A stretch of 32,469 bases of DNA from an uncultured Clostridia bacterium (GTDB lineage: Bacteria; Bacillota; Clostridia; Lachnospirales; Lachnospiraceae), in contig CAOKVX010000024.1 in NCBI GenBank assembly GCA_948472945.1, positions 1 through 32,469 on the forward strand, given 5' to 3'. Below are positions 22,871 to 23,602 of this stretch, one piece after another. Each line of letters begins with the position of its first letter. Positions within the stretch are counted from its first letter, which is position 1. The notes beneath the pieces were generated by a model, which ran no database searches, was not told the origin of the DNA, and saw only the letters and a list, made by a program, of their open reading frames with translations. Made by a program: the position numbers and the translations under genes.

Positions 22871-22879
22871 TGTTATAAT
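22871..22879 (+). promoter_or_regulatory. Extended -10 promoter for the hairpin leader and arsR-type gene
   Basis: TGTTATAAT gives a TGn-TATAAT extended -10 box; the -35 is poor. A start site about 22886 would place the whole hairpin train in the 5' leader of the regulator mRNA. Confidence 0.5.
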
Positions 22880-22903
22880 GTCCACGAAAGCAATGAGCAA
22901 TGC

Positions 22904-23005
22904 CGGTGCAGCAGGAGACAGATAGGATGTTTACATCCTTATCTGTCTATTGCTGTACCGATAGGGCGAATGCCCGTGAGCTCGAAAGCCTACGGCTTTC
23001 GAGCT
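22904..23005 (+). other. Three consecutive stem-loops at the start of the arsR leader
   Basis: First, a long hairpin 22904-22960: ten pairs (CGGTGCAGCA with TGCTGTACCG, one G-U), a 2x2 internal loop, then about 14 more pairs with one bulge around a TTTA loop. Second, GGGC-GAAT-GCCC (22964-22975). Third, a 12-pair perfect stem AGCTCGAAAGCC / GGCTTTCGAGCT with loop TAC (22979-23005). None has a T-run, so they are not terminators. Dense, back-to-back structure suggests a structured RNA or a mobile palindromic element. I do not recognise the family. Confidence 0.75.
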
Positions 23006-23006
23006 T

Positions 23007-23223
23007 GCAATGCTCATGTGCTATTTTAACATGAGCCGCAATGCTCATGTGCTATTTTAACATGAGCCGCAATGCTCATGTGCTATTTTAACATGAGCCG
23101 CAATGCTCATGTGCTACTTTAACATGAGCCGCAATGCTCATGTGCTACTTTGACATGAGTTCGCAATGCTCATGTGCTACTTTGACATGAGCCGCAATGC
23201 TCATGTGCTACTTTGACATAAGA
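23007..23223 (+). repeat. Seven tandem 31-bp palindromic repeats
   Basis: Units begin at 23007, 23038, 23069, 23100, 23131, 23163 and 23194 (31-bp period, one unit 32). Each contains GCTCATGT, a 9-base spacer and ACATGAGC, an 8-bp perfect inverted repeat, joined by CGCAAT. Copies 1-3 are identical (spacer GCTATTTTA), copy 4 has GCTACTTTA, copies 5-7 GCTACTTTG; the arms vary only at the array's right end, where copy 7 reads ACATAAG. Read across the junction, ACATGAGC-cgcaat-GCTCATGT is a second possible pairing. The array ends 43 bases before the regulator's ATG. Confidence 0.95.
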
Positions 23224-23266
23224 AAGGATAAATATAGGCTTCCATGCCTTAAAATTGATTGATATT

Positions 23267-23602
23267 ATGAAAAAAAATAAAGATTTTAACAAAGAACTAT
23301 ATGATATACAAAAAAATCTGCCGGATCGAGACGTAATCTACAATCTGGCAGAATTATTTAAAATGTTTGGCGATACCACAAGAGTTCGTATCCTATACGT
23401 TCTTTTTGAATCCGAGCTCTGTGTAAATGACATAGCTGAAATTCTCGGTATGACGCAGTCAGCAATATCGCATCAGCTGAGCGTCCTTAAAAGTTCAAAA
23501 CTCGTAAAATCAAGGAAAGACGGTAAATCAGTCTACTATTCTCTTGACGACGACCATATAAAGCATATATTTGATCAGGGCCTCGCACATGTAACCGAAT
23601 AA
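23267..23602 (+). CDS. ArsR/SmtB family zinc-sensing type repressor, orphan
   Basis: 111 aa winged-helix repressor. HTH: SELCVNDIAEILGMTQSAISHQLSVLKSS, then the wing DGKSVYYSLDD. The C-terminal helix carries Asp95-x-His97, His108 and Glu111, exactly the D-x-H-x10-H-x2-E spacing of the alpha-5 Zn(II)/Co(II) site of SmtB and CzrA; Glu111 is the last residue. The alpha-3 site is not complete: ELCVND has one Cys where ArsR/CadC have CxC. So it should derepress with zinc-like metals. Relatives usually precede a P-type metal ATPase, but here the next gene is a convergent Nudix hydrolase. Start at ATG 23267 is preferred; TTG 23255 is possible. Neither has a good ribosome site, which is unusual for this window. 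Confidence 0.9.
   Translation: MKKNKDFNKELYDIQKNLPDRDVIYNLAELFKMFGDTTRVRILYVLFESELCVNDIAEILGMTQSAISHQLSVLKSSKLVKSRKDGKSVYYSLDDDHIKHIFDQGLAHVTE

Follow-up and report, generated by a model that had tools for sequence, protein, structure and literature searches.

In the 32,469-nucleotide stretch of DNA analysed here (the window), which comes from an uncultured bacterium of the family Lachnospiraceae, a train of about ten hairpins precedes the gene of an ArsR-type regulator. It may be asked whether these hairpins serve that gene, as an operator or a regulatory leader, or have arrived there as a repeat with a history of its own. The best explanation, with a probability of roughly 0.6, is that the leader begins with a dispersed, mobile and structured 5'-leader element placed exactly where a transcription unit begins. 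By comparison of sequences, a conserved fold, location at transcript-end sites, unrelated downstream genes, turnover between sister species and concerted evolution within the genome could be shown.

Layout and fold of the leader

All features of the leader lie on the plus strand. The conserved left limit of promoter-type copies is an extended -10 box (TGTTATAAT, 22871..22879), which is common to 14 copies in this genome and places TATAAT (22874-22879) directly 5' of the element. The adjoining 5' segment (GTCCACGAAAGCAATGA, 22880..22896), in which the transcript start would be expected, consists of near-invariant columns in two gapless alignments, designated A1 (35 copies of the 64-nt P2 region) and A2 (19 copies, 72 nt). 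It is followed by the 5' strand of a closing helix, P1 (GCAATGC, 22897..22903; extended as ATGAGCAATGC, 22893-22903), a long hairpin, P2 (22904..22960; 26 bp, base 22939 being bulged), a short hairpin, P3 (GGGC-GAAT-GCCC, 22964..22975), and a further hairpin, P4 (22978..23006), which is supported by both covariation and the predicted fold. The first 3' strand of P1 (GCAATGCTCAT, 23007..23017; predicted duplex with the 5' strand approximately -14.1 kcal/mol) is at the same time the start of the first unit of a tandem array (23007..23224), from which a leader tail (23225..23254) extends to the regulator gene (23255..23602; PF01022 HTH_5, E 1e-16). The element itself is about 135 nt long, and similarity among its copies begins at the extended -10 box TGNTATAAT and ends near the motif GCACTGC.

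The regulator gene may start at TTG 23255 or at ATG 23267, the TTG-start frame being present also in the orthologue from the sister genome (G008), the protein product of which is 88% identical. The sequence-only reading had described the start codon as having no good ribosome site, which is roughly right: the AAAGGA at 23223-23228 is separated by 26 nt from the TTG and by 38 nt from the ATG. A small hairpin (AGGC-n6-GCCT, 23236-23249) occupies the interval and could draw this remote ribosome site closer to the TTG; one like it was noticed by eye in the G008 orthologue. On the promoter side, the window's own copy is devoid of a good -35 hexamer, and a consensus scan lists no plus-strand promoter at the site.

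RNA folding and covariation, two of the checks that the sequence-only reading had put forward for the leader, both came out in favour of structure. The stretch 22871-23266 folds at -176.8 kcal/mol, compared with -107.8 (sd 4.6) for 100 shuffles (z -15.0), while the element and the array, each folded alone, reach z -11.4 and z -6.3, respectively. The three stem-loops that had been described as opening the hairpin train proved to be three helices of a covarying four-helix fold (P1 to P4) that starts just after the -10 box; their place in a leader gains support, with transcription itself inferred. In a full-length alignment (A3), which comprises 55 of the 65 copies within the length limits out of 89 parsed, both partners vary in 32 of 39 pairs, and the alignment outscored all 500 shuffles on each of five measures.

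Within each of A1 and A2, the P2 hairpin keeps the same length, and its sequence is largely free to vary. Changes on both sides were seen for 23 of its 26 pairs in A1, where pairing extends to 88.8% of cells and the covariation score reaches 0.635, as against 0.202 (sd 0.013) after shuffling and at most 0.138 when the partner strand is slid by 1-3 columns. The corresponding values in A2 are 27 of 28 pairs, 94.4% of cells and a score of 0.876 (0.239 shuffled). In P1, changes on both sides were found for five of seven pairs in A3, with compensatory examples such as GCAGTGC/GCACTGC, GCCGTGC/GCACGGC and GCCATGC/GCATGGC, and a partner strand with at most one mismatch occurs in 82 of the 89 parsed copies (exact in 58). 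P3 is largely invariant, with 99.1% of cells paired in the 55 copies of A3, and P4 is the weakest helix, with eight of nine modelled pairs changing on both sides and 73.7% of cells paired.

The element appears, from compensatory changes in several helices, to fold as RNA. The residual mismatches are asymmetric: G-A or A-G oppositions outnumber C-T or T-C by 67 to 2 in A1, 12 to 0 in A2 and 102 to 10 in A3, which favours selection on the sense strand, although the second measure, G-U versus A-C, agrees in A1 only (31 versus 13; 11 versus 11 in A2 and 58 versus 53 in A3). At the gathering score, Rfam 15 recognises two tRNAs in the window and six tRNAs in 20 other loci, and nothing else; around the hairpin train, all Rfam matches are sub-threshold.

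Copies and their genomic contexts

The block 22904-23005, which had been singled out as worth looking for elsewhere, belongs to a dispersed element with 14 full copies in its own genome. A search of that genome with 22871-23240 gave 21 matches: 14 share the start position to within one base, and the others are partial and confined to the 3' part. A 26-base 5' pattern (up to three mismatches) was detected in 25 of 299 family genomes, the same pattern read backwards in none of the 299, and the exact degenerate pattern was found in 60 named stretches, mostly from Lachnospiraceae or from genera such as Lacrimispora, Enterocloster, Roseburia and Lachnospira. Lacrimispora celerecrescens carries copies at L081, L095 and L124. 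A covariance model (R1) matched nine of ten genus genomes (E 1e-3), 165 of 299 sampled GTDB family genomes (E 1e-5, with up to ten candidates scored per genome) and 19 of 291 class genomes (E 1e-4), ten of these outside the family. In 46 sources (392 kb) that were chosen for holding an element, so that the scan measures stray matches only, R1 gave 50 matches at E 1e-3, all of them at or beside known elements (tandem copies). Searches of 72,556 plasmid records and 50,697 phage records gave no match, and the exact 5' pattern was not found in viral contigs. With so wide an occurrence in the family and no Rfam family to mark it, many 5' untranslated regions would be misread as gene-specific regulation. 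Two very similar elements (L154 in G009 and L177 in G592) come from genomes of separate GTDB families, and each lies between 11-bp direct repeats with a sequence particular to that copy; this likeness may reflect either horizontal movement or contamination of the metagenome-assembled genomes.

Among 102 promoter-type copies, TG at the extended -10 position occurs in 81. A TTGACA-like hexamer (at least four of six bases) with the 17-nt spacing precedes 30 of them, where 4.7 would be expected and 200 shuffles gave no more than 11. The next gene runs in the same direction in 70 of 93 pattern-found copies and in the opposite direction in eight, and fewer than 700 bases lie downstream of the other 15; the same-direction genes therefore amount to 70 of 78 callable copies, with several of the eight opposite genes looking spurious by eye and counted nevertheless. 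A cruder count of the same 93 copies, in which frames overlapping the hairpins were allowed, gave 60 same, 30 opposite and three without a gene. In this genome, ten proteins encoded downstream of the element belong to unrelated Pfam families, except for one without any family. No family or pathway common to these ten was seen, which gives no support for a metabolite riboswitch.

The contexts were surveyed in 70 of the 90 model matches in 80 loci, leaving out 20 that were partial, cut off, tandem or further copies from this genome; the proportions that follow are biased by the training of R1 on promoter-type copies. A -10 box stands directly 5' of the element in 38 copies, a tRNA lies within 150 bases upstream in eight, and neither was found in 24. 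For six of these eight, the 3' end of the tRNA coincides with the first bases of the element; in two more loci (L148 and L153), the same tRNA-Arg end as in L165 was recognised by eye and was not called by ARAGORN. A terminator hairpin with a T-tract that ends at the element, or within two bases of it, occurs in seven of 26 tested loci, that is, the 24 with neither signal and two (L158 and L193) in which the tRNA is further off. Altogether, 51 of the 70 copies lie at one of three signals (-10 box, tRNA 3' end or terminator T-tract), or 53 if the two recognised by eye are included, and 17 fit none of these contexts. The copies at tRNA 3' ends and T-tracts are found among the more distant members. 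At L184, the terminator that precedes the element just upstream of position 1501 resembles, by eye, the terminator of a T-box leader. In the tRNA-linked loci L146 and L165, a terminator-like hairpin with a T-tract was seen by eye closely 3' of the element, and these copies could be stand-alone RNAs.

If the element does lie at the start of the transcription unit, RNA polymerase would start a few bases inside it and give an mRNA with a very stable structured 5' end, which would probably alter mRNA stability or processing rather than sense a metabolite. The 26-28 bp P2 helix would offer a possible RNase III-type target, and the 5' structure could block a 5' exonuclease. Since it is the fold that is conserved, in front of unrelated genes, the mechanism considered most likely is a 5' end that is stabilised or processed by an RNase, and the element may provide unrelated mRNAs with a new front end. 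It would spread by copying into such sites, that is, -10 boxes and transcript ends. Integration at transcription starts, if real, would amount to a natural means of furnishing arbitrary genes with the same 5' end, and the way in which small repeats choose promoter sites would become directly testable. It is a quite tentative proposal that integration is guided by transcript ends (after the -10 box, the tRNA 3' end or the T-tract), with the element's own 5' end placed there and co-transcribed from the first nucleotide. If true, this would be a novel mode of target-site selection in bacteria, and three otherwise different sites would have one feature in common.

The array of 31-bp units

Tandem Repeats Finder reports a period of 31 with 6.8 copies and 96% matches at 23007-23219, and the unit starts (23007, 23038, 23069, 23100, 23131, 23163 and 23194) are 31 bases apart except for one spacing of 32. 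The order given in the sequence-only reading, three stem-loops followed by seven 31-bp units, is thereby confirmed, as is the stepwise series of spacers (GCTATTTTA three times, GCTACTTTA once and GCTACTTTG three times). The arms, which had been said to be conserved in copies 1-6, are complete (8 nt) in copies 1-4 and 6, but copy 5 has one changed base, with ACATGAGT at the end of its right arm, and copy 7 (ACATAAGA) has decayed.

Each unit carries a P1 3' strand together with a hairpin. Every unit opens with GCAATGCTCAT, which can pair with ATGAGCAATGC at 22893-22903 (one A-A mismatch, approximately -14.1 kcal/mol), and this pairing competes with the unit's own hairpin, predicted at -9.8 to -11.5 in units 1-6 and -2.5 in unit 7. 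The array can also be read in another register, as ACATGAGC-n6-GCTCATGT followed by GCTATTTT; a scan reports this as two terminator-like sites, with 0.6 expected. The array is most likely a local expansion of the module carrying the 3' strand of the closing helix. Slippage or unequal exchange would have multiplied this module and left one P1 5' strand with seven possible 3' partners.

That the palindromes form a multi-site operator for the ArsR-type regulator, as had been proposed, is suggested by their symmetry, by a period close to three helical turns and by their position directly upstream of the gene. The array, however, lies downstream of the -10 box, other copies of the element precede unrelated genes, and the palindrome is not kept at the G008 orthologue despite its closely similar protein, the tail there being a different tandem unit (period 69, 2.7 copies), so that the operator is now very improbable. 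Homologues of the regulator elsewhere in the genus (L280-L283, 58% identity) were left uncounted, being probably not orthologous since the gene in front differs by eye; that gene is presumably P-type-ATPase-like.

The other alternative raised earlier, a dull repeat, holds for the element, which is dispersed at many unrelated loci, but not for the 31-bp unit: at up to three mismatches, a search found seven copies in the window's own genome and none in 298 further genomes of the family. That the array is a slippage minisatellite with no function of its own is given an even chance, and would be compatible with the structured element as the best explanation. Tandem tails with periods from 20 to 133 bp accompany 20 of 87 copies of the element, and both the different unit at the G008 orthologue and the privacy of the 31-bp unit to one locus agree with slippage. 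Against an absence of function, each unit retains the P1 3' strand and a stable hairpin, and at least two exact P1 3' strands are present in 20 of 87 copies, where 0.009 would be expected per copy; in 29 of the 87, the window's copy included, there is no exact P1 3' strand. The variable tandem tail offers a ready system in which to ask whether competing partner strands tune an RNA.

Turnover, probable mobility and known systems

In the sister genome, which is 85% complete, 10 of 11 queried genes were found, and at the ten orthologous loci the element is present in two, a remnant in one and absent from seven. The shared loci are arsR and L008 (at the latter, the G008 contig breaks off within the promoter), and the element is degraded at L004. 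At L006 and L014, the resident promoter aligns through TATAAT in both genomes and the element follows 3' in this genome only; the alignment scores are 54 (shuffled maximum 37.5) and a modest 44 (shuffled maximum 40.5), respectively. The promoter at L012 is nearly identical (95, shuffled maximum 44), and G008 carries another repeat after the same -10 box. At L003, G008 has neither promoter nor element, and no alignment of the promoter stretch was possible at L002, L005 and L007. The two shared copies resemble their own-genome paralogues (90.8% and 95.6%; 92.2% and 95.6%) more closely than their orthologues (84.5% and 86.3%), as expected for gene conversion or re-insertion.

A cis-regulatory leader that serves the host, whether as an antiterminator, attenuator, mRNA stabiliser or protein-binding site, would mark a regulon and would have spread through usefulness, not selfishness. 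Strong covariation, same-direction placement and the two shared orthologous loci would suit such a leader; it is nonetheless rather unlikely, as the ten downstream genes tested are unrelated, seven of the ten loci are not common to the sister species, and copies start after tRNAs or terminators. Equally doubtful is an ordinary miniature inverted-repeat transposable element (MITE) moved by a classical IS transposase with a target duplication of approximately 10-11 bp. It would account for the presence and absence of dispersed copies at orthologous sites, and direct repeats of at least 10 bp ending at the junction were found in 8 of 130 copies, a small but significant minority compared with about 0.8 expected from swapped flanks. 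Most copies nevertheless have no junction repeats, one of the eight (L173) belongs to a duplicated element, and most of the junction repeats consist of a second -10 box, which could be a second promoter; in an unanchored test for target duplications, 25 of 125 copies had at least 9 bp, with about 12 expected. By eye, no promoter-type copy showed terminal inverted repeats, and no transposase was identified, the search covering the Y1 family.

As a partner in the manner of REP/RAYT systems, the Y1 transposase was rejected, being absent from this genome (G000) and from G008; it is present in three of ten genus genomes. At L173:1501-1660 and its flanks, a 61-bp direct repeat takes in the element's 3' end, and the element and its flank look to have been duplicated in tandem at the start of a gene.

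Group IIC introns insert after terminator stem-loops, and the seven of 26 tested copies that follow terminators resemble them in position. Unlike these introns, the element is only about 135 nt long and occurs at promoter -10 sites as well, and no group II domains were detected at 20 loci at the Rfam gathering threshold. Processive antitermination RNAs of the put type and others are structured, stand at the transcript start and could act in cis on any gene; the element is likewise a structured RNA at a presumed transcript start, but differs in its many dispersed copies and their turnover.

Among known systems, the BOX elements of Streptococcus pneumoniae appear to be nearest in layout. These are described as small dispersed repeats that are predicted to fold when transcribed, contain one module in zero to several tandem copies, are thought to alter co-transcribed genes and are over-represented between convergent genes, without a comparable empty site (PMC3049150). 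Compared by layout, the two are alike in dispersal, predicted fold and variable tandem module, whereas the element described here occurs at -10 boxes facing a gene, and promoter sites without it were found. MITEs such as Correia, ERIC and RUP are described as short, non-coding, dispersed and strongly folded, some families affecting mRNA (PMC2229807, PMC3049150). The element differs from MITEs so described in that terminal inverted repeats are not recognised in promoter-type copies, target duplications are seen in a minority only, and no related IS was found. The accessible parts of PMC3049150, PMC8040213, PMC2267715, PMC8632094 and PMC2229807 contain no account of the element, and no description was found in the literature covered, the scope of which did not extend to subscription journals, preprints, supplementary tables or the 3161 candidates of PMC8040213.

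A second repeat was observed in the same lineage, for example at L230, L233 and L234 in G008 and at G000:C22:26965-27088. Of a 19-base piece of this repeat, G008 has 20 occurrences and this genome three, and there are none in eight other genus genomes. At L230 and L234, the repeat comes after the same -10 box, and its end provides a new TGGTATAAT.
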